DNA of 64,000 nucleotides from Actinocatenispora thailandica. GTDB taxonomy: Bacteria; Actinomycetota; Actinomycetes; Mycobacteriales; Micromonosporaceae. Position numbers and translations under genes: made by a program. Under the pieces are notes generated by a model, which had not been told where the DNA came from, did no database searches, and was given only the letters and a program-made list of their open reading frames with translations. The stretch covers positions 3,594,198-3,658,197 of the forward strand of contig NZ_AP023355.1 of assembly GCF_016865425.1 (NCBI RefSeq). Reading direction: 5' to 3'. Below, piece by piece: positions 7,330 through 38,942 of this stretch; the first letter of the stretch is position 1; every line of letters begins with the position of its first letter.

Positions 7330-7392
7330 CCCCCGGCCCGGCCGGGGACGCCAGCCGGGCGGTCCCGGGGCGGCGCTCCGGATCCGGCCGGT

Positions 7393-10455: not shown

Positions 10456-10538
10456 CGCATCCTCCTGGTCGGGCCGTCCGGAACCGCGTCACACCGGGCC
10501 CGGGCACCGCGCGATGGCGTGCCCGGGGCCGGTGTGCC

Positions 10539-10976
10539 TCAGGCGGTCGCCGGGACCCGGCGGTCCGCCCGCGCGGCCAGCTCGTCCTCGTCGACCAGGG
10601 TGAGCATCGGTGAGCCGGGCGGGCACAGCATCGTGACCGTGTAGCGTACCGGCATGTCGTCCCGGTTGTTGCCGTTCTGGTAGTGGATGACGTCGCCGCC
10701 CGGCTCCCAGAAGGCCTCACCGGCCCGGACCACCCGCGGCGCCTCGCCCTCCAGCTCGAACAGCATCTCGCCGGACACCACGTACCCGAAGCACGGGCCG
10801 TTGTGCCGGTGCGGCGGGGTACCCGGGTCGCCGGCCGGGAACTCGACGATGACCGTCATGGCGTGGGCGCCGGCCGGGATCGTCGGCGGCTCGACCTCCT
10901 GGATCATCGTCAGCGCGGTCTGCCACGTACCCGCGCGCCGCTCGTCACCCACCGTGCTGGTTTCGCTGTCCGGCAT
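10539..10976 (-). CDS. Cupin-domain protein
   Basis: The 145-residue single-domain protein has the two cupin motifs: motif 1 around PPHRHNGPCFGYVVSGEM (His pair for metal binding, Glu in place further on) and motif 2 around GDVIHYQNGN. It is probably a small metal-binding beta-barrel enzyme or sensor; substrate unknown. The ATG at 10976 is chosen because AAGGAGAC precedes it; the longer frame to 11093 reads as basic low-complexity sequence. An ECF41-type promoter element lies about 105-130 bases upstream, and cupin genes occur among ECF41 neighbours, so control by the nearby sigma factor is likely. Confidence 0.82.
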   Translation of the reverse strand: MPDSETSTVGDERRAGTWQTALTMIQEVEPPTIPAGAHAMTVIVEFPAGDPGTPPHRHNGPCFGYVVSGEMLFELEGEAPRVVRAGEAFWEPGGDVIHYQNGNNRDDMPVRYTVTMLCPPGSPMLTLVDEDELAARADRRVPATA

Positions 10977-11176: not shown

Positions 11177-12874
11177 ATGAGCAGCCCTACCGGGGACGAG
11201 GACGCCAGGCGAGACATCCGGCGACGGCGCCTACCGCACGACGGCTTTCTGCACGAGCTGGAGCACGGTGTCGAGGCCGAGCTCGACCTGGCGGAGGACG
11301 GGCCCGACGGGCGACCGGATCCCCGGCCGGTGGACGAGTGGCTCGACCCGGACGCCCAGCGGTACGAGATCGGCCTGCGGAACCTGCTCGGCGCGGTCGA
11401 GGCCGCCGAGGACTCGGTACACGAGGTGATGCCGGGCGCCGGCCACGCGTCCCGCCCGACCGCGTCGACGTCCGACACCCTGGGCGCGGCGCGGCGGATG
11501 GCCGCGGTGCCGTACCGGCACGGCAGCCGGGTGCCCGCCCACGACCACTGCCTGAACCCGGCGCGGGCCGCCGGCCGGCCGAGCGCCGCGGCCCGGTACG
11601 GCCGGATGTTCCCGCAGCTCGAACCGCTCGCCGGCGACCCGACGTCGGTACTGCGGGCCGGCGACGCCCACGACGCCGGCGCCGCCCTGGACCGACCGGA
11701 CGGCGCCGGCGACGACGCCGCCGAGGCCGCCGGCTGGCCGTTCTTCGGGCAGCTCGTCGGGCACGACATCACCGCCGGCCGCTCCCCCGCCGACGGCGCG
11801 ACCGAACCCGGCCAACCGCACGACGCGCGCGCCCCGAAGCTCGACCTGCAGCTGCTGTACGCCGACGGCCCGATCGGCTCACCGTTCCTGTTCGACCTCG
11901 ACGATCCGGCGAAGTTCCTGCTCGGGCCGGACGGCCGGGACGTACCGCGCAACCGGCAGGGCGTCGCGCTGATCGGCGACCCGCGCAACGACGTACACCT
12001 GTTCGCGCTGAGCCTGCACGTCGCGCTGTTGCGGGCGCACAACCGGATCGTCGACCGGCTGCGTACCGCCGGGGTGGCCGAGGCCGACCTGGTCGACGCC
12101 GCGCGCGTCACACTCACCTGGCACTACCAGTGGATCGTGGTGCACGACTTCCTGCCCCGGCTGGTGGGCACCGAGCTGGTCGAGCGGGTACTCGTCGAAG
12201 GCGGCCGGTGGTTCGCGCCGGAGCCCGGACACGGGTACGTCCCGCTGGAGTTCGCCGACGCCGCCTACCGGTACGGGCACGGCCAGATCCGGCACAGCTA
12301 CCGGCTCGTCGCGGGCGGCACGGCGGTACCGCTGTTTCCCGACCTGGTCGGCTTCGGGCCGCTGCGCGCGGACCGGCGGCTCGACTTCGCGCAGCTCTTC
12401 GACCTGCCCGGCCGCCCGGCGGCGCAGCGGGCGAAGCGGCTCGACGGGCGGCTCGCGACGAGCCTGGTCGGCCTGCCCGAGACGGTCACCGGCGACGTCG
12501 AGGCCGGCCACCGGCGGTCACTCGCGGCCCGCGACCTGCTCCGCGGCGCGTCGACCGGACTGCCCAGCGGCGAGGCGGTCGCCCGGCTGCTCGGCGCCGC
12601 CCCGCTGACCGCCGACGAGCTCGGTCACGACCATCCGCACGGCACCCCGCTCTGGTACTACGTGCTCCGGGAGGCGCAGCACCGGGGCGGCGGTGACCGG
12701 CTCGGCCCGGTGGGCGGCACGATCGTGGCGGAGGTGCTGATCGGGCTGCTGCGCGCCGATCCGGCGAGCTACCTGAGCCTGGAACCCGGCTGGCAGCCGA
12801 ACCTGCCGGCCGCGGGCGCGACGTACGCCCTGACCGACCTGCTCGCCCTCGGCGACGACCGGGAAGGAACGTGA
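11177..12874 (+). CDS. Animal-type (peroxinectin-like) haem peroxidase
   Basis: The 565-residue protein belongs to the animal haem peroxidase superfamily rather than the KatG class. The distal histidine is His196 in FFGQLVGHDIT. The calcium-site and helix sequences LIGDPRND and AHNRIVDRLR follow at 266-296, and the proximal histidine is His368 in AAYRYGHGQIRHS. No signal peptide is present, and the N-terminus is highly charged, so it is probably cytoplasmic or released non-classically. The ATG has AAAAGGGG upstream. It is divergent from the cupin gene and sits in a block of redox genes. Confidence 0.88.
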   Translation: MSSPTGDEDARRDIRRRRLPHDGFLHELEHGVEAELDLAEDGPDGRPDPRPVDEWLDPDAQRYEIGLRNLLGAVEAAEDSVHEVMPGAGHASRPTASTSDTLGAARRMAAVPYRHGSRVPAHDHCLNPARAAGRPSAAARYGRMFPQLEPLAGDPTSVLRAGDAHDAGAALDRPDGAGDDAAEAAGWPFFGQLVGHDITAGRSPADGATEPGQPHDARAPKLDLQLLYADGPIGSPFLFDLDDPAKFLLGPDGRDVPRNRQGVALIGDPRNDVHLFALSLHVALLRAHNRIVDRLRTAGVAEADLVDAARVTLTWHYQWIVVHDFLPRLVGTELVERVLVEGGRWFAPEPGHGYVPLEFADAAYRYGHGQIRHSYRLVAGGTAVPLFPDLVGFGPLRADRRLDFAQLFDLPGRPAAQRAKRLDGRLATSLVGLPETVTGDVEAGHRRSLAARDLLRGASTGLPSGEAVARLLGAAPLTADELGHDHPHGTPLWYYVLREAQHRGGGDRLGPVGGTIVAEVLIGLLRADPASYLSLEPGWQPNLPAAGATYALTDLLALGDDREGT

Positions 12875-13001
12875 CCCGGACCCGGACACCGGGATCCGGG
12901 CGGCCACCTGATCGGGGTCGGCCGGCCCTCCGGACTGCTGCACCGGCACCCCGACCCGCTGTCCGGGCGGCGAGGTTGGCGGCGATCGGTACGCTCACCG
13001 C

Positions 13002-13610
13002 ATGCAGCCCCAGCAATCGGACGGCGTACCGGCGTTCACGCCACCGGACCCGACCGCCCGGCGCCGCGTGCCGGCGTGGTTGATCTTGGTGCTCGTGCTC
13101 GGGGTCGTCGTGGTGGTCGGCGGTGCGATCACGGCCGTGGTGCTGGTCCGGCGCTCGTCCAGCGACGGGCCGATCGGCGTCGGCGACCACAGCGGGCCGC
13201 GCACGCTCGACCACTTCGTCGGGCTGCGCCCGGTCGGCGCGTCGCATCCCGCGCCCTGCAAGGGCGACGACCTGCCGGGCAAGGACACGACCGGGCAGGC
13301 GCTCTGTTTCCGGCTCGACTCCGGGATGAGCCTCAGCGCGGTGCAGGATCTCAGGGTCGAGCCGAGCCCGTACGGGGGCGGCGTGCTGATCCAGATCTCG
13401 CTGCGGCCCGCGGACGCGAAGCGGTTCGCCGACCTGACGAAAAAGATCTCGGCAGCCTCGCCACCCGGAAACCAGCTCGCCATCGTGGTGCGCGACGAGG
13501 TGGTGTCCGCCCCGGTGGTTCAGGACCCGATCGCCGGCGGCGAGCTGGAGATATCCGGTGGTTTCGACGCCGACCAGGCCACCAACCTGGCCAACAAGAT
13601 TCTCACCTGA
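13002..13610 (+). CDS. Membrane-anchored protein with SecDF P1-head-like domain
   Basis: This 202-residue protein has a Pro-rich cytoplasmic start, one transmembrane helix (residues about 25-48) and an extracytoplasmic domain. The C-terminal 60 residues match the head subdomain of the SecD first periplasmic region: SAPVVQDPIAGGELEISGGF followed by DADQATNLANKI. There is no SecD membrane core, so this is a stand-alone head domain displayed outside the cell. Role unknown; it could bind peptides or envelope proteins. Two cysteines (CKGDD and LCFRL) could form a disulfide. Confidence 0.72.
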   Translation: MQPQQSDGVPAFTPPDPTARRRVPAWLILVLVLGVVVVVGGAITAVVLVRRSSSDGPIGVGDHSGPRTLDHFVGLRPVGASHPAPCKGDDLPGKDTTGQALCFRLDSGMSLSAVQDLRVEPSPYGGGVLIQISLRPADAKRFADLTKKISAASPPGNQLAIVVRDEVVSAPVVQDPIAGGELEISGGFDADQATNLANKILT

Positions 13611-13632
13611 CCCGGGCACCGGCCCGGGCCGG

Positions 13633-13935
13633 CTACGACGAGGCCAGCGAGCCCAACCCGGCCCGCAGGTCGTCCAGGCTCATCGCCGGGCTCACGTCGA
13701 TGCGGGCCCGCATCGACGTCCACATCGGCTCGGTCAGCGACACCAGCTGGGACGGGTCGGCCAGGTCGAAGACCAGGATCCCGCCGCGGCAGCCGTTCAT
13801 CGGGAAGAAGTAGGCCGCCTCCGGCTTCAGCATCTCCAGCATCCGATCGAGGCCCTTCTGCAACGCGCCGTCCTTGAGCAGGTCGTTGCCGGCCCCGGTG
13901 TCGATCTCGAAGCGCATCACGGTACGCATCGCCAT
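13633..13935 (-). CDS. Small DUF3303-like / muconolactone isomerase-fold protein
   Basis: This protein of about 100 residues has the motif set GCRGGILVFDLADPSQL and PMWTSMRARIDVSPAM, which looks like the short ferredoxin-like alpha/beta fold of DUF3303-type and muconolactone-isomerase-like proteins. The ATG at 13935 is preferred because TAAGGCGG precedes it; a Met at 13959 is possible, while the frame up to 14079 is probably non-coding. It is convergent with the SecD-head-like gene, with only 22 bases between stops. Function unknown. Confidence 0.6.
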   Translation of the reverse strand: MAMRTVMRFEIDTGAGNDLLKDGALQKGLDRMLEMLKPEAAYFFPMNGCRGGILVFDLADPSQLVSLTEPMWTSMRARIDVSPAMSLDDLRAGLGSLASS

Positions 13936-26620: not shown

Positions 26621-27421
26621 TCAACGGCGGGCGTCGCGGAGGGTGTTGCGGGCGGTGCGGAGGATGGCCTCGTCGACGAAACGGCCGTCCGGCAGCGCCG
26701 CCGCCCCGGTGTCCTCGACCGCGAGTACCGCGCGGGCGGCGGCCAGCTCCGCCTCGGTCGGGGCGTACTCGGCGGCGATGACCGGCAGTTGCGCGGGATG
26801 GATCGCGGCGCGGCCCCGGAAGCCGACCCGACGCCCGGCCCGGCAGGAGGCGGCGAGCCCGGTCAGGTCCCGCACGTTCGGGTACACCGACTGGGCGGGC
26901 GCCGGGAGGCCCGCCGCCCGCGCGGCGACCAGTACCCGGGAGCGCGGGTAGGCCAGTCCGTCGTCGGCGTCGGCGGGCAGCCCGAGGTCGGCGCGCAGGT
27001 CTGCCTCGCCCAGCCCGATCGAGGCGACCGCCGCGTCGGCGGTCGCGATCCGGTACGCGCGTTCCACGCCCAACGCCGACTCCAGCAACGGATGCAGCGC
27101 GCGTCCGGGTAGCCGCGCGGCGACCACCCGGACGGTGTCCGCGTCCTCGATCTTCGGCAGCCGTACCCCGATCCCCCGCGGCAGGCCGGCGAGCATCGCG
27201 AGGTCGGCGTCGCCGGCGGCGGTGCGCACGTCGTTCACCCGTACCTGCACGTTCCGGTCGGTGATGGTGGCGAGCAGCCGGGCGGCCTGCTCGCGGGCGT
27301 GGCGCTTGCGGTCCGGGGCGACCGCGTCCTCCAGGTCGACCAGGACCACGTCGGCGTCACCGGCCAGCGCCTTGCCGACCCGGTCCGGCCGGTCCGCCGG
27401 CACGTACAGCGCGGTCAGCAT
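26621..27421 (-). CDS. HpcH/HpaI aldolase / citrate-lyase-beta-like (CoA ester lyase)
   Basis: The 266-residue TIM-barrel protein carries the CitE-like signatures: VLVDLEDAVAPDRK near residue 27 (metal-binding region), the RVND segment, LPKIEDADTV, LLESALGVERA (Glu metal ligand) and IGLGEADLRADLGL. Enzymes of this family cleave or form 3-hydroxyacyl-CoA thioesters such as malyl-CoA or citramalyl-CoA. It is the last gene of the minus-strand ribosyl operon, 55 bases after the CoA-transferase, so the pair probably activates and splits a carboxylic acid derived from the imported substrate (inference). Confidence 0.85.
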   Translation of the reverse strand: MLTALYVPADRPDRVGKALAGDADVVLVDLEDAVAPDRKRHAREQAARLLATITDRNVQVRVNDVRTAAGDADLAMLAGLPRGIGVRLPKIEDADTVRVVAARLPGRALHPLLESALGVERAYRIATADAAVASIGLGEADLRADLGLPADADDGLAYPRSRVLVAARAAGLPAPAQSVYPNVRDLTGLAASCRAGRRVGFRGRAAIHPAQLPVIAAEYAPTEAELAAARAVLAVEDTGAAALPDGRFVDEAILRTARNTLRDARR

Positions 27422-27476
27422 CCGGCGCCCCGGTTCGGGAGCCGGTCGCCGCGTTCCGGGGCCTCGACGCGGTGCA

Positions 27477-28735
27477 CTAGATCACCCCGGCGGCGCGCAG
27501 CGCGGCGACCTCGCCGTCCGGGTAGCCGAGTTCGGCGAGGATCTCGTCGGTGTCGGCGCCCTGGGAACGGCCGGTGAACCGGACCGACCCGGGGTGGCGG
27601 ACAGCCGGAACGGTACGTTCTGCATGGCGATCGGGCCGAGGTCCGCGTCGTCGACCCGGACGATGGTGTGCAGCGCCGCGTACTGCGGGTCGGCGGCGAT
27701 GTCGGCGGCGTCGTAGATGGGTGCCACGGCCGCCTGCGCCTGCTCGAACGCGGCGAGCACCTCGTCCCGGGTCCGGTCGGCGATCCAGGCGGCGACGGCA
27801 CCGTCGAGTTCGTCGGCGTGCGCGACGCGGCCGGCGCCGGTGGCGAACCACGGTTCGCCCACCACGTCGGGCCGGCCGACCAACCGCATCACCCGCTCGG
27901 CGATGTTCTGCGCGCTGGTCGAGACCGCGACCCAGCGACCGTCGGCGCACCGGTAGGTGTTGCGCGGCGCGTTGTTCGCCGACCGGTTGCCGGTGCGTGG
28001 CTGAACGGTGCCCAGCTGGTCCCACTGGGTGATCTGCGGGCCGAGCATGGCGAGCATCGGCTCCACGATGGACAGGTCGACGACCTGGCCGGATCCCGTG
28101 TGGTGCCGGGAATGCAGCGCGGCGAGCACCGCGTACGCGGCGGCGAACGAGGTGATGCCGTCGGCGAGCCCGAACGGCGGCAGCGTGGGCGGCCCGTCCG
28201 GCGCACCGGTCATCGCGGCGAACCCGCTCATCGCCTCGGCGAGCGTGCCGAAGCCGGGCCGGCGGCGGTACGGGCCGAGCTGGCCGAAGCCGGTGATGCG
28301 GGCGAGGACCAGGCCCGGGTTGTCGGCCGCCAGCACGTCGTAGCCGAGACCCCAGCGCTCCAGCGTGTCCGGCCGGAAGTTCTCCACCACCACGTCGGCG
28401 GTGCCGGCCAGCCGGCGGAACACGTCCCGGCCGCCGTCGGTGGACAGGTCGAGCGTCATCGTCCGCTTGTTGCGGCCGAGTGTCTTGTACCAGAGGTTGT
28501 GGCCGTCGCGGGCGGGGCCGTGACCGCGGGCGGGGTCCGGCCGGCGCGGGTGCTCCACCTTCACCACGTCGGCGCCCAGGTCACCGAGGTGCATCGCGGT
28601 CAGCGGGCCGGCGAACAGGGTCGAGGCGTCCACCACCCGCAGCCCGTGCAGCGGCCCGCGGCCGGCCTCGGGATGGCCCGTTCCCCCGGGCGCCGGCGCG
28701 CCTCCGGCCGGACTGCGCTCGTCGTGCTCGGTCAT
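27477..28735 (-). CDS. CaiB/BaiF class III CoA-transferase, frameshifted near its 3' end
   Basis: The protein of about 419 residues transfers CoA between carboxylic acids. Family features: GLRVVDASTLFAGPLTAMHLGDLGADVVKVEHP at the N-terminus, the catalytic-Asp region, LLRNKRTMTLDLS-type motif (RNKRTMTLDLSTDGG), VVENFRPDTLERWGLGYD and SIVEPMLAMLGPQ. Near 27588-27594 one base of a G/C run is missing: the frame passes from FRLSATPG into nonsense, while the neighbouring phase supplies the expected ending (SVRFTGRSQGADTDEILAEL, then GYPDGEVAALRAAGVI). Unrepaired, the product would end at 27482 with a scrambled tail of about 35 residues. The ATG overlaps the ribokinase stop (ATGA). Confidence 0.82.
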
Positions 28736-29628
28736 GCCGCACCGCCGAGGAAGGCGTCGACCTGCGCCGCGGTGGGCGCCGAGTCGGACGCGCCGGGTCG
28801 CTGGACCGACAGTGCCGCCGCGGCCGACGCCCGCCGCATCGCGTCCGGCATCGCCGTGCCGGCCGCGAGCGCGCTCGCCAGTACGCCGACGAACGTGTCA
28901 CCGGCCGCCGTGGTGTCGACGGCGGTGACCGGGAACGCCGGTACCGTCACCGGCTCGGCGCCGGCGGTCGCGTACACGGCACCGCGCTCGCCGAGGGTCA
29001 TCAGCACGTCGCACCGCCGCGCGAGCACGGCGGCCGCCTGGTGCGGGTCGTCGACGCCGGCGATGATCGTCGCCTCGTGCTCGTTGGGTACCAGCAGATC
29101 CACCGCGGCGAGGAGTTCGTCGGGCAGCGGGCGGGCCGGCGCCGGGGTGAGGACGGTCCGCACGCCGCACGCCCGGGCGTGCGCCGCCGCGGCCCGGACC
29201 ACCGACAGCGGCAACTCCAGTTGCAGCAGCAGGGTGTCGGCGCCGGCGATGACCGCGGCGTGCGCCGGCAGCAGCTCGGTCAGCGTGCCGTTGGCGCCGG
29301 GCACCACCACGATCGTGTTGTCGCCGCCGGCCGCCACGGTGATGTGCGCGGTGCCGGTGGGCGCGTCGGCGCGTACCACCGCGGTGGTGTCGACCCCGGC
29401 GGCGCCGAGCGCGGCGAGGATCTGCCGGCCGAGATCGTCGTCGCCGACCGCGCCGGCGAACCGGACGGTGCCGCCGGAGCGGGCGGCGGCGATCGCCTGG
29501 TTGGCGCCCTTGCCCCCGGGCACCTGCCGGAAGGTGTGGCCGGCGATCGTCTCGCCCCGGCCGGGCAGCCGGTCGGTGGTCGCGACCAGGTCCATGTTGG
29601 CGCTGCCGAGCACCACGACGTCGGCCAT
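28732..29628 (-). CDS. rbsK: Ribokinase (PfkB family)
   Basis: The 298-residue kinase phosphorylates D-ribose (or a close relative) with ATP. It has GSANMDLV (sugar lid start), GGKGANQAIAAAR (substrate-binding Gly-Gly), and the C-terminal PfkB signature AVDTTAAGDTFVG whose Asp is the catalytic base. It begins inside the TGATG junction with the preceding ADP-ribosylglycohydrolase gene and ends in the ATGA junction with the CoA-transferase, so it is translationally coupled on both sides. Context implies that the upstream glycohydrolases release free ribose (or a ribose-like sugar) which this enzyme traps. Confidence 0.92.
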   Translation of the reverse strand: MADVVVLGSANMDLVATTDRLPGRGETIAGHTFRQVPGGKGANQAIAAARSGGTVRFAGAVGDDDLGRQILAALGAAGVDTTAVVRADAPTGTAHITVAAGGDNTIVVVPGANGTLTELLPAHAAVIAGADTLLLQLELPLSVVRAAAAHARACGVRTVLTPAPARPLPDELLAAVDLLVPNEHEATIIAGVDDPHQAAAVLARRCDVLMTLGERGAVYATAGAEPVTVPAFPVTAVDTTAAGDTFVGVLASALAAGTAMPDAMRRASAAAALSVQRPGASDSAPTAAQVDAFLGGAA

Positions 29629-31043
29629 CAGTTGCACTCCCGTTCGTTGGCAAGGTTGTCCGCGACCGACAGGGTCCGGTCGGCGAGCTCGTCGAAGCCG
29701 ATGCCGTCGAAGCCGGGCAGGCTGGAGGCGAGACGGTTGCGCAGCGGCGCGACCCAGCGGTCCGGCAGCGCACCGGCTCCGCTCAGCGCGCCGGCGATGG
29801 CCCCGGCGGTGGCGCCGTTGGAGTCGGTGTCCCAGCCGCCGCGCACCGCGCAGGTGATGGTCGTGGTGAAGTCGCCGGCACCGTAGACCAGGGCCGCGGT
29901 CAGCAGCGCCGCGTTGTTGAGCACGTGCACCCAGTGCAGTTCGCCGTACCGGGCGGCGATCGCGTCCACCGCGTCCTCGAAGTCGGTGTGCCGGGCCGGC
30001 AGCGCCCGGGCGAACCGGACCGCCCCGGCGTACCGGGAGTCCGGTGGTATCGCGGCGAGCCCGGCGTCGAGTACCTCGTCGACGCGGGTACCGGCGACCG
30101 CGGCCGAGCTGGCCGCGGCGACGAACATCGCCCCGTACACCCCGTTGCGGGTGTGGCTGAGCACCGCGTCCCGCCAGGCCAGATCCGCGGCGACGAGCGG
30201 CACGCCGGGGTGCACCCAGCCGTAGACGTCGGCGCGGATCTGCGCACCGATCCAGTCCCGGAACGGGTTGCGCACCGTCGCGGTGTCCGGCGGTACCTGA
30301 CCGAGCAGCAGGTTGCGGTAGGCCACCCGCTCGGCGGTGAACAGCCGGCCGGCCGGCAGCTCGGTCAGCCAGGCCTGCGCGACGTCCTCGGTGGACAGTG
30401 CGGAACCGTGCCGTTCCAGCAGTTCCAGCGCCAGCAGCGCGAAGTTCAGGTCGTCGTCCTCGGGCATCCCGGCGATGTTCTCGGCCAGGCTGGTCGGTGC
30501 GCTGCGGCGGTTCCACGGCCACCGCCGGGCCACCTCCGGCGGCAGGCCTTCGGCGGTGAACCAGTCGGTCAGCGGCCACCGGCCGGTCGCGGTCAGGATC
30601 TGCCGGATGCCGGCCCGCGGGATCTTCTCCACCGGCTTGCCGAGCAGGCATCCCACCGCGCGGCCCAGCCACGCACCGTGCAGCCGGTCGCGGTACCCGG
30701 CCGCGCCGGCCACCGCCCGCCCGTCGCCCACCGCGCCGGGCTCCGGCGTCCGCACGCCGTCCGGTGCCGCACCGGTACGCAGCCGGCGGATCGCGGCGAG
30801 GTCGGTCGGCTCGGCGGCGTCGAGGGCGGCGGGGCGGCGGTCCAGCTCGTCCAGGATCTCGCCGGCGAGCGCCCGCAGCGCGGGCGTGGCCGGCCGCTCG
30901 GACGCGCCGGAGTGCAACGGCTCGGGGTCCCCGCCGGCGGCCACCCAGGACTCGCGCAGGTCGGTGACCTCGACGCCGTCGAGCACCGCCTGGGCGAGCC
31001 CGTGGCCGACCAGGTCCTCGGGCTGGACCCAGGTCAACCGCAT
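29628..31043 (-). CDS. ADP-ribosylglycohydrolase family protein 1 (with N-terminal extension)
   Basis: The 471-residue protein has an unrecognised N-terminal region of about 115 residues. The ADP-ribosylglycohydrolase (DraG/ARH) all-helical domain follows: LHGAWLGRAVGCLLGKPVEK, the first acidic motif PEDDDLNFALLALELL, and the second metal motif GGWDTDSNGATAGAIAGA. Both acidic clusters that hold the binuclear Mg centre are present. ARH enzymes hydrolyse alpha-ribosyl bonds; substrate here is unknown. The ATG at 31043 overlaps the stop of the next upstream family member (TGATG), and its own stop overlaps the ribokinase start. Confidence 0.88.
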   Translation of the reverse strand: MRLTWVQPEDLVGHGLAQAVLDGVEVTDLRESWVAAGGDPEPLHSGASERPATPALRALAGEILDELDRRPAALDAAEPTDLAAIRRLRTGAAPDGVRTPEPGAVGDGRAVAGAAGYRDRLHGAWLGRAVGCLLGKPVEKIPRAGIRQILTATGRWPLTDWFTAEGLPPEVARRWPWNRRSAPTSLAENIAGMPEDDDLNFALLALELLERHGSALSTEDVAQAWLTELPAGRLFTAERVAYRNLLLGQVPPDTATVRNPFRDWIGAQIRADVYGWVHPGVPLVAADLAWRDAVLSHTRNGVYGAMFVAAASSAAVAGTRVDEVLDAGLAAIPPDSRYAGAVRFARALPARHTDFEDAVDAIAARYGELHWVHVLNNAALLTAALVYGAGDFTTTITCAVRGGWDTDSNGATAGAIAGALSGAGALPDRWVAPLRNRLASSLPGFDGIGFDELADRTLSVADNLANERECN

Positions 31044-32191
31044 CACGACAGCAGCCCGTCGTACCCGGCGTCGACGGCGGCCCGCGCGGCCCGGTCTGCG
31101 GTACGGATCCGGCGGGTCACCGCGGCGAGCCGCTCCCCCGGTGCGACCAGGTCGGTCCGGCTGGCCGTCGCGACCGCCGCGGCAAGGTCGGCGTCCACGG
31201 CGTCGCGGCCGTGCAGGGCGCCGGCGATGGCACCGGCCATCGACGCGATCGAGTCGGCGTCCCGGCCGTAGTTGACGCTGCCCAGCACGGCCTCCCGCCA
31301 GTCGCCCTTGGCCAGTACCAGCATGCCGAGCGCCAGCGGCAGTTCCTCGATGCTGTGCACCCGGCTGGGCCGGCGGGCGCCGAGCCCCTGGTCGCGGTAG
31401 TCGTCGCCGACCGTGTCGTACGGGCGGATCGCGGCGCGCAGCGCGCCGGACTCGATCGCCTCGGTCCAGTGCGCGAGCGTGCCGGCGGCGGTCACCACCG
31501 CCTCCACGGCCGCCCGGGTGCCGTCCTTGGCCAGCCGCAGCGCGGCGGCCACCACGTCGTCGACGGTGGCGCCGGGCGCCGCGGCGGCGGCCACGCTCGC
31601 GGCGAGCACCCCGGCCGCCTCCCGGCCGTAGGAGGCCTGGTGCGCGCCGGCGACGTCGATCGCCTCCGCGTACGCGGCGTCCGGGTCGGCGGCGTTGACG
31701 ATGCCCACCGGCGCCATGTACATCGCCGCGCCGCAGTTGACCGCGTTGCCGACGCCCGCCTCGCGCGGGTCGGCGTGCGCCCAGTGCAGCCGCAGCGCCA
31801 GGTACTTCTCGGCGAGGAACACCCGTTGCAGCGGCAGCGCCGCCGCCTCCAGCTCCGGCACCCAGCGGCGCTCACCGAGCATCAGCGGTACCAGCCGGGC
31901 CGCCACGTCGTAGGCGGTCAGGTGGGTGCCGGCCTGCTCGTACACCTCGACGAGCAGGTGCGTCATCAGGGTGTCGTCGGTGACGTGGCCGTCGCCCTTG
32001 TGGTACGGGGCGATCGGGCGCGCGTTGCGCCAGTCGGCGAAGTACGGGCCGACGATGCCGTCCACCCAGCCGCCCCAGCGCTGCGCGATCTGCGCCGGGC
32101 TCCAGCCCTCCGTCGCGCCGCCCAGGGCGTCACCGACTGCGGCGCCGACGAGGCAGCCGACCGCGCGCGATTCGAGGCTCTCACTGGCCAC
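31043..32191 (-). CDS. ADP-ribosylglycohydrolase family protein 2
   Basis: The 382-residue protein starts at GTG 32191, with AAAGGA nine bases upstream. It contains the whole ARH domain: AVGCLVGAAVGDALGGATEG, the VTDDTLMTHLLVEVY motif with Asp-Asp-Thr for metal and catalysis, and NYGRDADSIASMAGAIAGAL near the C-terminus. It is the most canonical of the four copies together with copy 4. It overlaps the preceding gene by 11 bases and the following one by one base, showing tight coupling within the operon. Confidence 0.9.
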   Translation of the reverse strand: MASESLESRAVGCLVGAAVGDALGGATEGWSPAQIAQRWGGWVDGIVGPYFADWRNARPIAPYHKGDGHVTDDTLMTHLLVEVYEQAGTHLTAYDVAARLVPLMLGERRWVPELEAAALPLQRVFLAEKYLALRLHWAHADPREAGVGNAVNCGAAMYMAPVGIVNAADPDAAYAEAIDVAGAHQASYGREAAGVLAASVAAAAAPGATVDDVVAAALRLAKDGTRAAVEAVVTAAGTLAHWTEAIESGALRAAIRPYDTVGDDYRDQGLGARRPSRVHSIEELPLALGMLVLAKGDWREAVLGSVNYGRDADSIASMAGAIAGALHGRDAVDADLAAAVATASRTDLVAPGERLAAVTRRIRTADRAARAAVDAGYDGLLS

Positions 32192-33374
32192 GGGTGGTCC
32201 TTTCCACGATGTCGAGCAGGTCGACCCCGGCGAGCGTGGGGTCGCAGCAGCCGGCCAGGATCCGACACCGGTCGGTCCAGGACGGCGGCAGGTCGGCGGC
32301 GCCGCGTACCGCACCGAGCAGGGCGCCGGTGAGGGCCGGCGCGCTGTCGGCGAGCGACGGCAGGGCGGTCGCGGCGAGGATGGTGTCGATCGCCGGGGTA
32401 CCGCTGCGCAGCGCCACCGCGGTCAGCGCGGCGGCGACCGGTACGGTCTGGGCGGCGGCGCAGCCGTAGCTGTACACCCGGTCCACCAGCTCGTCCAGCA
32501 ACGGCACGGCGTCCGCCGGCGTACCGGCCGGGTCGACGAGCGCGAGCGCCCGCCGCAGCGTGCGGCCGGGCAGCCGGTCCGCCGGCAGCTCGTCGGCCAG
32601 CGCGGCCAGCAGCGTGCTCGCGGCGGCGTCTCCGGTCGGCGCGGCATCGGCGGCGACCGGCGGACCGGACCGCACCACCGGCGCCGCATCCGCGGACGGT
32701 GCTGGTGCCGCGTCCCCGGCCGGTGCCGCATCCGCGGACGGTGCCGGGGCGGGGGGCGGCGCGGCGGTGACGGCGGCGGCGATCGCGGCGGCGACGGCGC
32801 GCGCGGCGGCGATCCCGTCCCCGGCGTGCGTCACCTCGGCGTCCCATTCGGCGAGCGTCGCCGCGTGCGCCGGGGTCGCGCCCAGCACGCCGAAGCCGAC
32901 CGCCCGGATCGCCGCGGCGTCGTCGAAGTGGTGCGGGTTGCGGCGGCCGGAGTCCGGCGGCGACACACCGCGGCGCAGGTTGTCCACGGCGGCGGCCACC
33001 GCGATCCGGCCGGCCGGGACCGTACCGTCGGTCACCGCCGCCGTCCAGTGCGCGTGCACCGTGGCGCGGTCGGTCGGCCGGGTCGCGCCGGAGCGCAGCA
33101 GCGTCCAGGCGACCCATTCGGCGTCGTCGCCGGGACCGAGCCGTAACGGCGTCGGGTCCTGGTTGAGCGCGAACGGAACCGGCAGCGTGGTCACCGACTC
33201 CGCCTCGGCGAACGCGTCCAGTTCGCGGCGCAGCCGGCGGGTCCAGCCGGGAAGCAGCCGGGAGCGGTGCACCCGGGCCGGCCAGCCGGCGGCATCGCCG
33301 ACCGCGAGGCCCAGTACCGCGCCGCGACGGCGGTCCCGCTGGTGCGTGTCGGTGCGGTCGATCGGTTCGCTCAT
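32181..33374 (-). CDS. ADP-ribosylglycohydrolase family protein 3, degenerate metal motif
   Basis: The 397-residue protein is a diverged family member. The N-terminal motif is clear (GAVLGLAVGDAAGWPARVH), but the canonical TDDT is replaced by GDDAEWVAW. The C-terminal motif DADS/DTDS has become LADSAPALTGALLGAV, so the first Asp is Leu. A linker of about 55 residues rich in Ala/Pro/Asp (repeats of APAPSADAAP and similar) interrupts the domain near residues 215-265. This pattern suggests altered specificity or a non-catalytic partner role. Its ATG overlaps the stop of copy 4 (ATGA). Confidence 0.8.
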   Translation of the reverse strand: MSEPIDRTDTHQRDRRRGAVLGLAVGDAAGWPARVHRSRLLPGWTRRLRRELDAFAEAESVTTLPVPFALNQDPTPLRLGPGDDAEWVAWTLLRSGATRPTDRATVHAHWTAAVTDGTVPAGRIAVAAAVDNLRRGVSPPDSGRRNPHHFDDAAAIRAVGFGVLGATPAHAATLAEWDAEVTHAGDGIAAARAVAAAIAAAVTAAPPPAPAPSADAAPAGDAAPAPSADAAPVVRSGPPVAADAAPTGDAAASTLLAALADELPADRLPGRTLRRALALVDPAGTPADAVPLLDELVDRVYSYGCAAAQTVPVAAALTAVALRSGTPAIDTILAATALPSLADSAPALTGALLGAVRGAADLPPSWTDRCRILAGCCDPTLAGVDLLDIVERTTRGQ

Positions 33375-34477
33375 CGCGGTGCGGTCCTTGCCTCGGGGCC
33401 GGCCGTCGACGGCGGCTGCGGGGCTGCCGCCCTGGCAAGTCGTGCCTCGACGAGGCGGTCGGCGAGGTCGGTCATGGTCAGCCCGGCGACGACCTCACCC
33501 AGGCAGCGGCCGGTCACCGGGCCGATCGCGGCGGCCCAGTCGGCGGGGATGCCAGCCATCCCGCGACTCGCACCGCACAGCGCGCCGGCGATCGCGGCGG
33601 TGGTGTCCGCGTCCCGGCCCATCGCCACCGCGGCCGGTACGGCCCGGCGCAGCTCACCGTCCGCGGCGAGGAAGGCGCCGAACGCCAGCCCGACCGCCTC
33701 CGGCGCGAGGTCGGTCCACGGGTAGCTGCGCACCACCAGCGCGTCGAGCAGCGCGTCCGGCCCGGCGGCGGTACCGGCGGTGGCCAGCGCCGCCGCCGTC
33801 CACGAGTCGCCCGGTACGCAGCCGCGGGCCGCGGTGAGGACGGCACCGGGGCGGGCGCCGTCCAGGGCGGCGGCGACCGCGGCGGCGACCGCCTGGCCGG
33901 CGTACACGCCCTCGCCGTCGTGGCTGACCGCGCCGTCCACCGCGGCCAGCCGGGCGGCCGTGGCGACGTCGCCCGCCGCGTACACCCCGTGCACCGCGGC
34001 GCGCATCGCGAGCCCGTCGCTCCACGAGTGCAGGTGCTGACCGGACGCGGGCGGCCGCAGCCCGGCGCGCAGGTTCTCGATGGTGCCCAGTTCGCTGAAC
34101 CCGGCGCCCGGAAACCCGCCGGACCGGCCGGCGAGGTGGCGTACCCACGCGTCGGCGACCTGCTCGCTGGTCAGCGCGGTGCCGTGCTCGATCAGCAGCA
34201 GCGCGCTGAACGCCGCGTACTCGGTGTCGTCGGTACCGGCCGGCTCGTCGCGCAGGAACCCGGTCACCGTGCCCCACCGTTGCGCGATGGCCGCGGCGGT
34301 CATGTTCTCCGCCGGCGCGCCCATCGCGTCCCCGATCGCGAGGCCCAGCAGGGTGCCACGAGCCCGGTCGCGGGCCGCGCCGGGGTCGGGTCCGGCCCGG
34401 CCGGGTGTGGGATGCCCGGCCGGCCCGTGGACGTCGTGCTCGCGGTTCAGTGTCCGCCCCCGGCGACCTGCTTCCAA
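33371..34477 (-). CDS. ADP-ribosylglycohydrolase family protein 4
   Basis: The recognisable domain is complete: RGTLLGLAIGDAMGAPAENM, PAGTDDTEYAAFSALLLIEHG with Asp-Asp-Thr, and AMGRDADTTAAIAGALCGA with the second metal-ligand pair. The start is uncertain: no ATG or GTG lies between the end of the binding-protein gene and the domain. A TTG at 34477 (30-base overlap) is the nearest option; an ATG at 34567 would give 398 residues and a 121-base overlap. It lies directly behind the transporter genes, linking uptake to hydrolysis. Confidence 0.85.
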   Translation of the reverse strand: MEAGRRGRTLNREHDVHGPAGHPTPGRAGPDPGAARDRARGTLLGLAIGDAMGAPAENMTAAAIAQRWGTVTGFLRDEPAGTDDTEYAAFSALLLIEHGTALTSEQVADAWVRHLAGRSGGFPGAGFSELGTIENLRAGLRPPASGQHLHSWSDGLAMRAAVHGVYAAGDVATAARLAAVDGAVSHDGEGVYAGQAVAAAVAAALDGARPGAVLTAARGCVPGDSWTAAALATAGTAAGPDALLDALVVRSYPWTDLAPEAVGLAFGAFLAADGELRRAVPAAVAMGRDADTTAAIAGALCGASRGMAGIPADWAAAIGPVTGRCLGEVVAGLTMTDLADRLVEARLARAAAPQPPSTAGPEARTAPR

Positions 34478-35745
34478 CCCTTGGTGAGCTGGTCGGTGAG
34501 CTTGCTGGTGCTGATGTCGTTCGCCAGGTAGCGCTGCAGCGCCGGGGTGGCGATCTGGTCCTTCCACTGCGGGTAGTCCTTGGCGTGCAGGTACGGCGCG
34601 TCCACGCTGTGCTCGCCGGAGACCAGGATCTGGTCCCAGCCGTCCTTGCCGCCGGTCTGCGCCCGGACCGCCTTGCGGGCGCTCGCGGTGGCCGGGATCA
34701 GCCAGTCGCTCTGCGCCAGCTTCGCCAGGTTGGCGTCGGCGACGAAGTAGTCGATGAACTGCGCCGCCTCCTTGACGTGCTTGGTCGCCTTGGACACCGA
34801 CAGCGTCTGCGAACTCGCCGGCTGGGCGCTGGTGGTACCGGCCAGCGGCGGCAGCACCGCCCAGCCGAAGCCCTTCGGCGCCTGCTCCTGGATCTGCTGC
34901 GCCACGTACGATCCGGCCACCATCATGGCGTACTTCCCGGCGTAGAAGCCGGGCAGCACGTCACCGCCGGACTGCGTCAGGCTGGTCAGGTCGATCGACT
35001 TGTCGTCGTAGGCCATCGCGTGGATGCGCTGCGGCACCTGCAGCTCCGCAGTACCGACGGTGATGCTCGCGCTGTCCCCGGTGTTCCGGAACCACTTCCC
35101 ACCGAAGTTCGCGGACAGGTTGAGCACGGTGGCGGCCGGTTGCTTCAGCCCCCACCCGACCCCGTGACTGCCCTTGCCGGTCAGCTTCTTCGCCATCGCC
35201 CGGAAGTCGTCCCAGGACAGCGACTTCCCGGTCGGTACCGAGACACCGGCCTTGCCGAGCGCGGTGGTGTTGGCGAACACCACGTAGGTCTGCTGCAGGG
35301 TGGGTACCGCGATCACCTTGCCGTCGACGGTCAGCGAGCTCCACACCCCGTCGGAGACGTTGTCACGCAGTGAGCTCGACAGGTACGGCTTGAGGTCGGC
35401 GAAGTAGCCCTGCTGGCCGAACCCGATGATGTCGGCGTTCTCGTCGTGGATGATGTCCGGCGCGGTGCCGCCGGCAAGCTGGGTGACGAGCTGGTCGTGC
35501 ACGTTGTCCCAGCTGCCCTGGATCAGTTCGACCTGCACCTTGGGGTGCTTCGCGTTCCAGGCCTTGACGGCCTTCTTGGTCTGCGCGACGGTCGTGTCGG
35601 CGAACGCCAGCGACTGGAACTTCAGGTGCACCGTGCCGTTGGCGTCGGTGTTGTCGGAGCTGCTGCCGCCGCCGTTGGTGGCGCAGCCGGTCAGGGTCGC
35701 TGCCGAGGCCGCGAGCATCGCGGTCAGGGCCGTCCTTCTGTGCAT
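34447..35745 (-). CDS. ABC sugar importer, extracellular solute-binding lipoprotein
   Basis: The 432-residue protein has a lipoprotein signal (MHRRTALTAMLAASAATLTG followed by Cys21) and a family 1 solute-binding fold (WNAKHPKVQVELIQGSW, GGTAPDIIHDEN, GQQGYFADLKPYL, PTLQQTYVVFANTTALGKAG). It delivers substrate to the two permeases encoded just upstream. The ATG has AAGGAAC before it. Because the following genes are ADP-ribosylglycohydrolases and ribokinase, the ligand may be a riboside or ribose-containing compound rather than a common oligosaccharide (inference). Confidence 0.9.
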   Translation of the reverse strand: MHRRTALTAMLAASAATLTGCATNGGGSSSDNTDANGTVHLKFQSLAFADTTVAQTKKAVKAWNAKHPKVQVELIQGSWDNVHDQLVTQLAGGTAPDIIHDENADIIGFGQQGYFADLKPYLSSSLRDNVSDGVWSSLTVDGKVIAVPTLQQTYVVFANTTALGKAGVSVPTGKSLSWDDFRAMAKKLTGKGSHGVGWGLKQPAATVLNLSANFGGKWFRNTGDSASITVGTAELQVPQRIHAMAYDDKSIDLTSLTQSGGDVLPGFYAGKYAMMVAGSYVAQQIQEQAPKGFGWAVLPPLAGTTSAQPASSQTLSVSKATKHVKEAAQFIDYFVADANLAKLAQSDWLIPATASARKAVRAQTGGKDGWDQILVSGEHSVDAPYLHAKDYPQWKDQIATPALQRYLANDISTSKLTDQLTKGWKQVAGGGH

Positions 35746-35777
35746 CGGAGGGGTTCCTTCCTTCACCTGTGGCGGGG

Positions 35778-36617
35778 TCAGCCCTTGACCGCGCCGGCCA
35801 GCAGGCCGGAGGTCAGTCGGCGCTGCATCAGCGCGAAGAAGACCAGGCTGGGGATCATCGACAGCAGCGATCCCGCGGCGAGCGGGCCGAGCTGTACCTG
35901 GCCCTCCTGGCCGACGAAGCGGGCAAGCGCCAACGGCAGGGTGTTGAGCGTGGGATCCTGGATGAGCACGAGCGCGAAGAAGAACTCGTTCCAGGACAGG
36001 ACGAACGCGAACATCGAGGTGGCTGCGATGCCCGGCAGCAGCAGCGGGAACACGATGGAGGTCAGGGTGCGCAGCCGGCTCGCACCGTCGGTCGCCGCCG
36101 CCTCCTCCAGCTCGGCGGGGATCTTCGCCACGTAGCCCTGCAGCATCCACAGGGCGAACGGCAGCGACCAGACCAGGTCGACCAGGACCAGGCCGACCAG
36201 CGAGTCGATCAGCCCGAACTGCTTCAGGATCAGGAACAGCGGCACCACGATCAGGATGATCGGGAACACCTGGGAGACGAGGATCCACCCCATCGCCACG
36301 CCCCGCAGCCGGCTGCGGAACCGCGCCAGGGCGTACGAGGCGGGTACCGACACGAGGATCACCAGTGCGGTCGTGCAGCCCGCCACGATCAGGCTGTTCG
36401 CCCCGGCCCGCAGCAGGTCCTGCTGCTCGATCGCGGACCGGAAGTTGGTCAGCGAGAACGACTCCGGCAGCAGGCTCGGCGACAGCGACGCCAGCTCGCG
36501 GGGTGTCTTGAACGACGTGGACAGCAGCCAGACGAGCGGGAAGCCGAGCAGCACGACGTAGCCGGCGAGTGCGAGGTAGGACAGCGCCCGGCCGACGGTG
36601 AGGCGACGTGGAGTCAC
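35778..36617 (-). CDS. ABC sugar importer permease (MalG-type)
   Basis: The 279-residue membrane protein has six hydrophobic helices and the inner-membrane EAA loop (EEAAATDGASRLRTLTSIVFPLLLPG) that contacts the ATPase. Length and end are typical of MalG-like carbohydrate permeases. GTG 36617 overlaps the stop of the partner permease (GTGA). No ATPase gene is in the cluster; a shared MsiK-type ATPase elsewhere is the usual actinomycete solution. Confidence 0.92.
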   Translation of the reverse strand: MTPRRLTVGRALSYLALAGYVVLLGFPLVWLLSTSFKTPRELASLSPSLLPESFSLTNFRSAIEQQDLLRAGANSLIVAGCTTALVILVSVPASYALARFRSRLRGVAMGWILVSQVFPIILIVVPLFLILKQFGLIDSLVGLVLVDLVWSLPFALWMLQGYVAKIPAELEEAAATDGASRLRTLTSIVFPLLLPGIAATSMFAFVLSWNEFFFALVLIQDPTLNTLPLALARFVGQEGQVQLGPLAAGSLLSMIPSLVFFALMQRRLTSGLLAGAVKG

Positions 36618-37540
36618 TGGGCGGCCCGCCTTTGCGCACGCAGGTACACGAACATCAGCAGCACGATCACCGCGACGATCACCACTCCCATCGCGGCGGC
36701 CAGCCCGAAGTTGCCGTACTTGAACGCCTCGTTGTACGCGAACAGCATCGGCAGCATCGTCTTGCCGCCGGGCCCACCGGCGGTGAGCACGTACACCAGG
36801 CCGAACTCGTTGAACGACCAGATGAAGTCGAGCGTGGTGATGGCCACGATCACCGGGCGCAGCGAGGGCAGGACGATGTGCCAGAACCGGCGCCAGCTGC
36901 TGGCACCGTCGACCGCGCCGGCCTCCAGCACGGCCGGGTCGACCGACTGCAACCCGGCCAGCAGCACCACGGTGGTGGCCGGCATCCCCACCCAGACGCC
37001 GACGAAGATCACCGCCGGCAGCGCGGTCGAGAAGTCGCCCAGCCAGTTGACGTTGTGGTCGATGATGCCCAGCGTGGACAGGATCCCGTTCACCGGACCC
37101 GATCGCGGGTCGTACATCAGCTTCCACATGATCGCGATGATCACCGGCGGCATCGCCCACGGGATCAGCGCGAGCACCCGGGCGAACGCGGCTCCGCGCA
37201 GCCTCATGTTGAGCAGCAGCGCCAGCCCGAGCGCGAGCAGGAACTGCAGCACGGTCACCGAGACCGCCCAGACCAGGCCGATCCGGAACGAGTCCCAGAA
37301 CAGCCCGTACGAGCCGAGGTCGGCGAAGTTGCGCAGCCCGACGAACGCGCCCGGCCGGCCGGCCGTGGTGTCGGTGAAGGCGAGGTAGATGCCCTGCAGC
37401 AGCGGCCAGACCGACAGCAGCGCCACCGGGATCAACGCCGGCAGGACCAGGATGGTGCCGCCCGCGTCGCGCCGGCGCCGGCGGGCCGCCGGCGCGGCGG
37501 GCGCCGGTACCGGCGGGTCGAGTGTCGCGTGCTGGCTCAT
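36614..37540 (-). CDS. ABC sugar importer permease (MalF-type)
   Basis: The 308-residue protein begins with a Pro/Ala-rich cytoplasmic tail and an Arg cluster, then six transmembrane helices with the EAA loop LEAGAVDGASSWRRFWHIVLPSLRP. It is the MalF-like partner of the following permease. Its ATG overlaps the LacI stop (ATGA), so the regulator, transporter and enzymes form one transcript. Confidence 0.92.
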   Translation of the reverse strand: MSQHATLDPPVPAPAAPAARRRRRDAGGTILVLPALIPVALLSVWPLLQGIYLAFTDTTAGRPGAFVGLRNFADLGSYGLFWDSFRIGLVWAVSVTVLQFLLALGLALLLNMRLRGAAFARVLALIPWAMPPVIIAIMWKLMYDPRSGPVNGILSTLGIIDHNVNWLGDFSTALPAVIFVGVWVGMPATTVVLLAGLQSVDPAVLEAGAVDGASSWRRFWHIVLPSLRPVIVAITTLDFIWSFNEFGLVYVLTAGGPGGKTMLPMLFAYNEAFKYGNFGLAAAMGVVIVAVIVLLMFVYLRAQRRAAQ

Positions 37541-38556
37541 CGGACCCCTTCCTGCGGTGCCGGGGTGGACGACTCGCGGACGGTCAGCCACGGGTCGACG
37601 ACGACCCGCTCGGCGGGCCGGTCCGGGTCGGCGATCCGGTCCAGCAGCAGCCGGGCGGCGGCCGCACCGCGCTCGCCGGAACCGAGGTTGACGCTGGTCA
37701 GGCCGGGTGAGACGACCGCGGCCAGGTCGGTGTCGTCGATGCCGACCACGGCGAGCTCGTCCGGCACCCGGATGCCGCGCGAGTGCGCCACCCGCATCAC
37801 GCCGAAGGCGAGCAGGTCGTTGGCGCACAGCACGGCGTCGGGTCGGTCGTCGAGCACCCGTTCGGCGATCTGCCGACCGGCGTCGACGGTGAACGCGCCG
37901 GCCGCGTAGCGCCGCCCGGCGCCGGCCAGCAGCCGCTCGTCGGCCCGGTCGAAACCGCGCTGTCGCGCGCTGCCCGGCACGGTGTCGACGGGACCGTTGA
38001 CGAACGCGATCCGGCGCCGGTCGGTGTCCACCAGGTGCTGCATCGCCAGCTGCACGCCGGCGGCCGAGTCGGCCTGCACCGCGTCCACCGGTACCGCCGC
38101 GGGCGGGGTACCGATGACCACGGCGGGGTGCCGCAGCCGTTGCAGCGCCTGCAGGATCGGTTCGGTCATCCGCAGCGGGCTGATGATCACGCCGTCGGCG
38201 TAGCCGCTGGACAGCCCGTCCAGGATGGCGATCTCCTCGGCCACCTCGGAGTTGCCGGTGGACAGCAGCAGCCGGTAGCCGGCGTCCTTGACCACGGCGG
38301 CGACCGCGCGCATCAACCCGGTGTAGACCGGGTTGCCGACGTCCGGCACCACCAGGACGAGCTGCTCGGTGCGCCCGACCTTGAGCGACCGGGCCCGGGC
38401 GTCCGGGGTGTACCCGAGCGAGTCGACGGCGGCGCGCACCCGGGTGGTCATCTCGGGGCTCGCCGGCAGGCCGTTGAGGACCCGGGACACCGAGGCGACG
38501 GACACCCCGGCCAGGTCGGCGACCTGACTGAGCGTAGGGCGTGCGGACAGCGTCAA
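37537..38556 (-). CDS. LacI-family repressor of the ribosyl operon
   Basis: The 339-residue regulator has the LacI DNA-binding domain at residues 8-60 (TLSQVADLAGVSVASVSRVLNG) and a periplasmic-binding-protein-like effector domain (VLVVPDVGNPVYTGLMRAV; VIISPL; VVGIDDTDLAAVVSPGLTSV). It is the first gene of the operon and overlaps the permease gene, so it is autoregulated with it. The effector is presumably the transported compound or a breakdown product. A repeat of A/TAAACG lies 31-48 bases before its start. Confidence 0.92.
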   Translation of the reverse strand: MTLSARPTLSQVADLAGVSVASVSRVLNGLPASPEMTTRVRAAVDSLGYTPDARARSLKVGRTEQLVLVVPDVGNPVYTGLMRAVAAVVKDAGYRLLLSTGNSEVAEEIAILDGLSSGYADGVIISPLRMTEPILQALQRLRHPAVVIGTPPAAVPVDAVQADSAAGVQLAMQHLVDTDRRRIAFVNGPVDTVPGSARQRGFDRADERLLAGAGRRYAAGAFTVDAGRQIAERVLDDRPDAVLCANDLLAFGVMRVAHSRGIRVPDELAVVGIDDTDLAAVVSPGLTSVNLGSGERGAAAARLLLDRIADPDRPAERVVVDPWLTVRESSTPAPQEGVR

Positions 38557-38942
38557 CCCACCGCTCCTCTCCCGGATGACCAGCTGAAAACGTTCTTGTA
38601 AACGACTACAGCGGCAAGCTACCGCACGCCTCCGAGCACGTCAACGGTCGATTTCGCGGGGAGAACACGCAGGTTACGGCGGTACCCGACAGTTCGGGCG
38701 GGGGTTTTCGCGGGTGCCGGGCGGCGCACCCTGCCGGGCACCCGAAACCGTACGCAGGCGGACTACCGTGCGTCATCTTCGGCCGGCACGGTGGCCCGGT
38801 ACCCGAAGCGCGGCGACGACCATCGTGGTCGTCGCCGCGGCGGGCTCCGATCGGGCCGGCCCGCGGGCCGGCCGCACCGCCCGGCCGGCCGTACTGCCCG
38901 GCCGGGCGGCGCGTGGAGCGCTCAGTGGAAGGTGTGGAGTGC
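38557..38942. other. Intergenic region with operon promoter and hairpins
   Basis: The 386 bases separate the LacI-led operon from the small secreted-protein gene; both are on the minus strand. Next to lacI is an AT-rich promoter/operator. In the middle is a hairpin (CGGGTGCC at 38711-38718 with GGCACCCG at 38737-38744). Near 38854-38873 is a perfect 20-base palindrome (GGCCGGCCCG and its complement), probably a terminator of the secreted-protein gene. No gene is seen. Confidence 0.55.
38587..38604. promoter_or_regulatory. Candidate operator of the LacI-led operon
   Basis: The hexamers AAAACG (38587-38592) and TAAACG (38599-38604) are repeated at 12-base spacing in an otherwise GC-rich spacer; CGTT-N6-AACG within them also forms an inverted pair. 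Location directly upstream of a LacI gene and AT-rich context suggest the autoregulatory site. Protein binding is inferred. Confidence 0.45.

Follow-up and report, generated by a model that had tools for sequence, protein, structure and literature searches.

An eleven-gene operon of Actinocatenispora thailandica joins four ADP-ribosylglycohydrolase homologues to a sugar-type importer, a ribokinase and coenzyme A enzymes: a likely catabolic operon for an imported glycoside

Genes of the ADP-ribosylglycohydrolase (ARH) family have already been recorded beside kinase and transporter genes. The Escherichia coli yegTUV-yegW (GgaR) locus brings ARH, sugar-kinase and transporter genes together in one operon with one regulator, and the relevant part of PMC10819704 calls the function of yegTUV unknown. 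A staphylococcal trio of the SERP2216-2218 type consists of an ARH, a permease and a ribokinase gene, to which the relevant part of PMC3637587 assigns no function. Here we describe a larger locus from Actinocatenispora thailandica. The minus strand of the analyzed window (the whole stretch of DNA, 64,000 nucleotides) carries from 38556 to 26621 eleven genes in the same direction: lacI, two ATP-binding cassette (ABC) permease genes (permA and permB), the gene of a solute-binding protein (SBP), four ARH genes in the order ARH4-ARH3-ARH2-ARH1, rbsK, caiB and citE. The labels ARH1 to ARH4 were coined in this analysis and their numbering runs opposite to the direction of transcription. The genes probably make up an operon for the catabolism of an imported glycoside, and we have filed this operon as a LacI-ABC sugar catabolic type with hydrolases from the ADP-ribosylglycohydrolase superfamily.

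The nearest known loci have in common with this operon the theme of an ARH, a kinase and a transporter; the importer type, the presence of several ARHs and the genes of the coenzyme A (CoA) enzymes are not shared. The yegTUV-yegW locus has a transporter of the major facilitator superfamily (MFS) type, a GntR-type regulator, one ARH and no adjoining CoA genes; instead of the combination of one nucleoside-type MFS symporter, one ARH and one kinase, the window has an ABC importer and four ARH genes. YegU retains 26% identity to ARH2 over 328 residues and YegV 25% identity to RbsK over 310. The staphylococcal trio, as far as the relevant part of PMC3637587 presents it, differs in its cytosine/purine-type permease, its single ARH and its lack of LacI or CoA genes. 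Closer in gene order are rhizobial plasmid loci of the form LacI-ABC-ARH2-long ARH-ugpC-(ribokinase), which likewise run lacI, two permeases, SBP, ARH2 and an ARH1-type gene. These differ in having their own ATPase gene ugpC, an ARH1-type protein of ~700 residues and no annotated CaiB/CitE, and among the three stretches only that of Agrobacterium has a ribokinase. The itaconate degradation operon (RipABC type) resembles the distal end of the window's operon in pairing a CoA-transferase with a CitE-like lyase, and RipC is the top NCBIfam match of the lyase; the window's lyase, however, scores 164 bits where the cut-off is 375 bits, and no hydratase family was found among the ten proteins scanned with Pfam. 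An earlier note on this DNA had stated that no characterized pathway of this design was known. No paper naming the operon was found among those listed from open-access PMC text. ARHs beside kinases and transporters were already on record in the relevant parts of PMC10819704 (yegTUV) and PMC3637587 (the staphylococcal trio), their function not established there, which makes the idea less isolated than the note had taken it to be.

All eleven genes have an open reading frame on the minus strand where the earlier note had placed them. Ten of the eleven proteins were subjected to a Pfam scan and all ten scored above the family cut-offs, while the binding protein was identified through NCBIfam and the PDB. 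BPD_transp_1 was matched twice, by the two permeases, and LacI/Peripla_BP_3 by the regulator. The E-values for ADP_ribosyl_GH (PF03747) in the four ARHs were 6.8e-52, 2e-48, 3.6e-24 and 3e-49, and those of RbsK (PfkB), CaiB (CoA_transf_3) and the CitE-like protein (HpcH/HpaI) were 4.3e-68, 1e-121 and 1.3e-29, respectively. Neighboring genes overlap at seven junctions, by 4 bases at lacI/permA, permA/permB, ARH4/ARH3, ARH2/ARH1 and rbsK/caiB, by 11 bases at ARH3/ARH2 and by 1 base at ARH1/rbsK. Gaps of 32 bases (permB to SBP) and 60 bases (printed caiB stop to citE) occur at two others, and the SBP-ARH4 junction is uncertain because the start of ARH4 is uncertain. The gene list and the overlaps of the earlier note are thus real, and its reading of the genes as one regulated operon is supported.

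The importer is of the sugar type. Permease A (36614..37540, minus strand) is a PF00528 protein of carbohydrate type by Pfam and NCBIfam, and permease B (35778..36617, minus strand) is assigned to PF00528 by Pfam. The SBP (34447..35745, minus strand) has the N-terminus ...TLTGC of an extracellular lipoprotein, matches sugar-binding proteins in NCBIfam (below cut-off) and in the PDB, and has varied sugar-binding proteins as its nearest solved relatives. Two BPD_transp_1 permeases with a sugar-type SBP make up an importer class that we take to be CUT1, and this composition supports the sugar-type import proposed earlier. None of the eleven genes encodes an ATPase subunit; a UgpC relative (63%) is encoded at C1:94525-95613 of the same genome.

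The first gene, lacI (37537..38556, minus strand), encodes a LacI-family repressor by Pfam, and its top NCBIfam match is the ribose repressor RbsR, below cut-off (190 vs 382 bits). A LacI-type operator, CAAGAACGTTTTCA (38585..38598, minus strand), is located 28 bases upstream of the lacI start and has 11/14 matches to the LacI-type consensus TGAAAACGTTTTCA, a 14-base sequence that was picked after viewing the window. A sigma-70-like TTGACG-17-TAGCTT was seen by eye just upstream of this operator. Sites with at least 10/14 matches were present upstream of lacI in 69/69 regions (that of the window plus those of 68 loci, out of 98 supplied, whose lacI match was strong) as compared with 28/1380 shuffles, which preserve single-base composition only. 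Among the 38 supplied loci without lacI and transporter, the 33 with an ARH4 match demonstrated no operator enrichment upstream of ARH4 (at least 10/14 in 2/33; shuffles 12/660). Therefore, LacI probably controls the import version of the operon but not, at least not through this site, the Streptomyces version.

The gene set is conserved in relatives. Three congeners that were fetched have the eleven genes in an order identical to that of the window, and each of the four genomes of the genus, that of A. thailandica included, holds six PF03747 matches, of which four lie together in this operon. When genome contigs were scanned with the ARH1 alignment, at least 588 stretches were confirmed, a number that counts ARH1-type genes and not whole operons. 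The best 80 of these, biased to close relatives, were taken as loci, and a gene was scored as present when it gave a tblastn match on the ARH1 strand within 9 kb. All 80 loci are actinobacterial by title and ARH2 adjoins ARH1 in every one of them. Loci were termed uncut when the sequence extended at least 7.5 kb ahead of ARH1 and at least 6 kb beyond it, which held for 71. Among these, lacI was found in 47, the transporter in 46, rbsK in 52, ARH3 and ARH4 in 47 each and both caiB and citE in 61. None of these loci has, on the ARH1 strand, only one member of either pair, ARH3-ARH4 or caiB-citE. The earlier note had declared beforehand that a gene set not conserved in relatives would speak against its proposal. 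Conservation was found in 4/4 genomes of the genus and, with optional modules, in the 80 loci, and the co-occurrence for which the note had suggested a search is complete for ARH2 with ARH1 and extends at the above counts to rbsK, CaiB/CitE and the transporter.

Fifteen further stretches of the same family, chosen from a match list mostly for paired ARH matches, all carry lacI, both permeases, SBP, ARH2, ARH1 and rbsK without ARH3/ARH4, and 14 of them carry caiB and citE. Nine Streptomyces-like stretches, selected for matching ARH3, contain ARH4-ARH3-ARH2-ARH1 with caiB and citE, and six of the nine contain rbsK; no match to the transporter genes of the window was found in these nine. In two of them (L101 and L103), the ARH-CaiB-CitE block lies, by eye, between glutamate synthase-like and lgt/trp-like genes. 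Across the host family, ARH1 was detected at E 1e-100 or better in 92/354 genomes. A sample of the phylum gave an ARH1 match at 1e-60 in 14/396 genomes, that of A. thailandica included, and in five of these 14 the further or only ARH1 matches are weaker ones.

Two further genes join some of the 71 uncut loci, an esterase gene (9 loci) and a gene of a family that we call GHF (26 loci), which encodes a protein of ~650 residues, is located after rbsK or ARH1 and has no copy in the window. Pfam scans of four GHF members matched an FGE-type C-terminus only, with the rest of the protein unmatched. One member was modeled (pLDDT 78, weak at about 218-256); the N-terminal part of the model resembles amylase-clan barrels (best E 5e-9, TM only ~0.35) and the C-terminal part matches EgtB/FGE proteins. 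GHF thus appears to combine, in its model, an amylase-like barrel with an FGE/SUMF-type domain (for example L086:12015-14003; 30 loci listed).

All four ARH proteins pass the PF03747 cut-off (86-177 vs 26.2 bits). In this family, the conserved Asp residues of the motifs are established metal ligands. ARH2 (31043..32191, minus strand) keeps TDDT and DADS by Pfam and motif alignment, and ARH4 (33371..34567, minus strand; true start uncertain, homology from near 34375) keeps TDDT and DADT. ARH1 (29628..31046, minus strand), which has a conserved N-terminal extension of ~115 residues, carries EDDD where the other ARHs carry TDDT or a relative of it, together with DTDS. The metal-motif Asp residues are kept in 107-108/108 rows of the ARH1 alignment, 108/108 of ARH2 and 61-62/62 of ARH4, and both Asp of D-x-D in 107/108, 108/108 and 62/62 rows, respectively. 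Aligned with the other ARHs, the divergent paralogue ARH3 (32181..33374, minus strand) lacks the complete pair of family metal motifs. Its second motif, L-A-D-S in the window, is mostly (V/L)-A-D-S, with V or L at the position of the first Asp in 57/61 rows and Asp in 0/61. The earlier note had counted four hydrolases; judged by its motif, ARH3 is probably not an ordinary catalyst, and since it is without one conserved metal-motif Asp we consider it probably a partner subunit of ARH4. ARH3 as a decaying fourth ARH was rejected, as the altered motif is itself conserved (A-D-S in 59-60/61 rows) and same-strand ARH3 without ARH4 occurs only in three loci cut by contig ends.

In a tree of 95 ARH rows made by a quick method, ARH1 to ARH4 form four separate groups (SH-aLRT 98-100), and a recent tandem duplication was therefore rejected. 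ARH3 joins ARH4 with a support of 96, a join where the program flags long branches. ARH2 proteins from three alphaproteobacterial plasmids group with actinobacterial ARH2, and the long ARHs with ARH1; several of these joins, too, are flagged as long branches meeting. In this tree, the neighbors of the window and L083 are Jiangellaceae and Actinopolymorpha, and L084 is placed elsewhere although it comes from the genus of the other two; operons of one genus in different parts of the tree suggest that the operon may have been exchanged horizontally. The hydrolase part of an ARH1 model (pLDDT 85) matches ARH3, DraG, MJ1187 and Thermus ARH structures. The same model also matches 8xqw_G and 8xks_Q, a chain of the Ycf2/Orf2971-FtsHi motor complex, which may contain an ARH-like fold.

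RbsK (28732..29628, minus strand) passes the equivalog cut-off of the ribokinase model TIGR02152 (303 vs 299.65 bits), misses that of a second ribokinase model, PRK11142 (269 vs 341 bits), and aligns with solved ribokinases. The ribokinase motifs N-x-D, GGKG-x-N, Q-x-E and GD hold positions that contact ribose or serve catalysis, and these are invariant in 83/83 rows. The earlier identification of the gene as a ribokinase is confirmed by the TIGR02152 score and these residues. Its coupling to ARHs, also put forward earlier, recurs independently at a second ARH locus of the same genome (L204, C1:1906000-1922000). There, LacI, ribokinase, an RbsD/FucU-family gene and a 686-residue ARH occupy 5857-10728, with a permease match in 12607-13923, after the ARH gene. 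The ribokinase of this locus (47%) is the only other close RbsK homologue of the genome and lies just before the PF03747 gene, with the RbsD gene between them. The presence of LacI, ribokinase, RbsD and permease genes beside an ARH is the strongest hint at ribose as the product, and we regard ribose as slightly more likely than not to be the product of the main operon. LacI, ABC, ARH and ribokinase genes also occur together on plasmids of Agrobacterium, Mycolicibacterium and Deinococcus.

The last two genes encode a CaiB/BaiF class III CoA-transferase (27477..28735, minus strand) and a CitE/RipC-like C-C lyase assigned to PF03328 by Pfam and NCBIfam (26621..27421, minus strand). The body of CaiB is intact, and its Asp motif is kept in 94/95 rows (one gap). 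Relative to the three congeners, in which caiB is a single frame through to a normal end, the frame is broken near 27590 (in the region 27477-27620), so that it is lost over the final ~30 residues, the C-terminus is unrelated and the printed frame ends at 27482; the break is either a mutation or a sequencing error. The acidic motifs of CitE are kept in 92-94/94 rows. A step in which CaiB and CitE process an acid is plausible, though we hold it somewhat short of probable. For four of the ten uncut loci that lack the pair (L126, L132, L144 and L176), the listed genes were read by eye for a replacement, and nothing consistent was found. In another of the ten (L137), CaiB, ARH3 and ARH4 are encoded together at the start of the contig, on the opposite strand.

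Taken at its most specific, the explanation that we favor, to which we give about an even chance, is that a ribofuranoside-like conjugate is imported and hydrolyzed under the control of LacI. The SBP and the two permeases would bring the glycoside in, probably powered by a shared UgpC/MsiK-type ATPase encoded elsewhere. Inside the cell, the constant pair ARH2 and ARH1 would hydrolyze ribofuranosyl-type glycosidic bonds by the two-metal chemistry of ADP-ribosyl hydrolases, and ARH4 with its altered partner ARH3 would be a conserved add-on, probably broadening the range of cleavable bonds. RbsK would trap the freed ribose as ribose 5-phosphate. CaiB would activate a short organic acid, derived either from the aglycone or from an acyl group, to a CoA thioester, which the CitE-like enzyme would split into acetyl-CoA and an oxo acid.

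Several observations weigh against this scheme. The ribokinase is not found in 19/71 uncut loci and caiB/citE in 10/71, so the ribose trapping and acid degradation that the earlier note built into its scheme are not obligatory to the core (52/71 and 61/71 loci). An adjoining transporter is missing from 25/71 uncut loci, all 25 titled Streptomyces or Kitasatospora, and import is therefore not universal. In plasmid stretches of Phyllobacterium, Nitratireductor, Pseudochrobactrum, Rhizobium ACO-34A and Enterobacter, ARH genes accompany ABC genes but no ribokinase is annotated. RbsD, met only in the second locus, was searched for in 115 related loci (L083-L197) of the main operon type and found in none. 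CaiB has a broken C-terminus in this assembly and scores below every NCBIfam equivalog cut-off listed, and the CitE-like lyase falls short of the equivalog cut-off of its top match RipC by the margin given above. Finally, neither ARH2 nor the operon was found beside weaker ARH1-like genes in the three stretches read (L205-L207), and the ARH1-ARH2 pair is therefore constant only for the close ARH1 type.

The optional ribokinase (52/71 uncut loci), together with the GHF and esterase genes that join 26/71 and 9/71 of these loci, speaks for a rival in which the substrate is a non-ribosyl furanoside or other glycoside, such as a fructo-, psico- or apio-furanoside or else an acylated oligosaccharide, with the PfkB kinase acting on another released sugar. 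The varied sugars bound by the nearest solved relatives of the SBP agree with it, as does a weak match of residues 525-658 of the long ARH of the second locus (L204:8668-10725) to a levanase module (E 2.6e-4), presumably CBM66, which binds fructofuranosides. Such a substrate is nevertheless rather unlikely in our estimate, given that RbsK lies over a ribokinase cut-off with its motifs kept in 83/83 rows and that the ARH of that same second locus has ribokinase and RbsD genes next to it. A different reading of the fold and metal motifs, which are those of ADP-ribosyl hydrolases, would be intracellular salvage, with the ARHs clearing cell-made ADP-ribosylated molecules or damaged NAD-type ribosides and the kinase recycling ribose. 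The 25 transporter-less uncut loci and the missing operator enrichment in loci of this kind would fit, and a distant ARH1-like gene without ARH2 (L206:8444-10900) lies, by eye, near a Sir2-type NAD-dependent deacylase-like gene. We consider salvage improbable, however: the LacI-ABC importer is directly upstream in 46/71 uncut loci, no ADP-ribosyltransferase was found among the ten Pfam-scanned proteins, and all four ARHs miss the NCBIfam equivalog cut-offs of DraG (<=53 vs 337 bits) and Tri1 (<=36 vs 490 bits) by a wide margin. Nor did the four ARHs match any PADLOC defence model, which also led us to reject a role in anti-phage defence.

Known ARHs cleave N- and O-linked ribosyl bonds, and the ARHs of the operon might accordingly be N-ribosidases acting on an imported modified nucleoside or a nicotinamide- or benzimidazole-type riboside. 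The described loci lend this some color, as the E. coli yegT neighbor is a predicted nucleoside symporter in the relevant part of PMC10819704 and the staphylococcal permease is of cytosine/purine type in that of PMC3637587. The importer here is of carbohydrate type, though, no base-degrading enzyme is present among the ten Pfam-scanned proteins, and CaiB and CitE would suit a hydroxy acid better than a base. Of the explanations considered, N-riboside catabolism is the most doubtful.

The PF03747 family is hardly known for nutrient processing; what ARHs are chiefly known for is the removal of ADP-ribose from proteins. We tentatively propose that the ARH fold may have a second, widespread role in nutrient-degrading furanoside hydrolases. 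The old ARH1 and ARH2 pair, often with ARH4/ARH3, would be the core of an undescribed actinobacterial and rhizobial pathway that imports ribofuranosyl conjugates and passes ribose to a ribokinase and the attached acid to a CaiB/CitE cleavage cycle. If this is true, many soil-bacterial PF03747 genes annotated as ADP-ribosylglycohydrolase would be carbohydrate enzymes, and a ribose-containing nutrient would be common enough to maintain ARH1 in 92/354 host-family genomes and in at least 588 contig stretches. The yegTUV and staphylococcal ARH loci would likewise gain a testable function.

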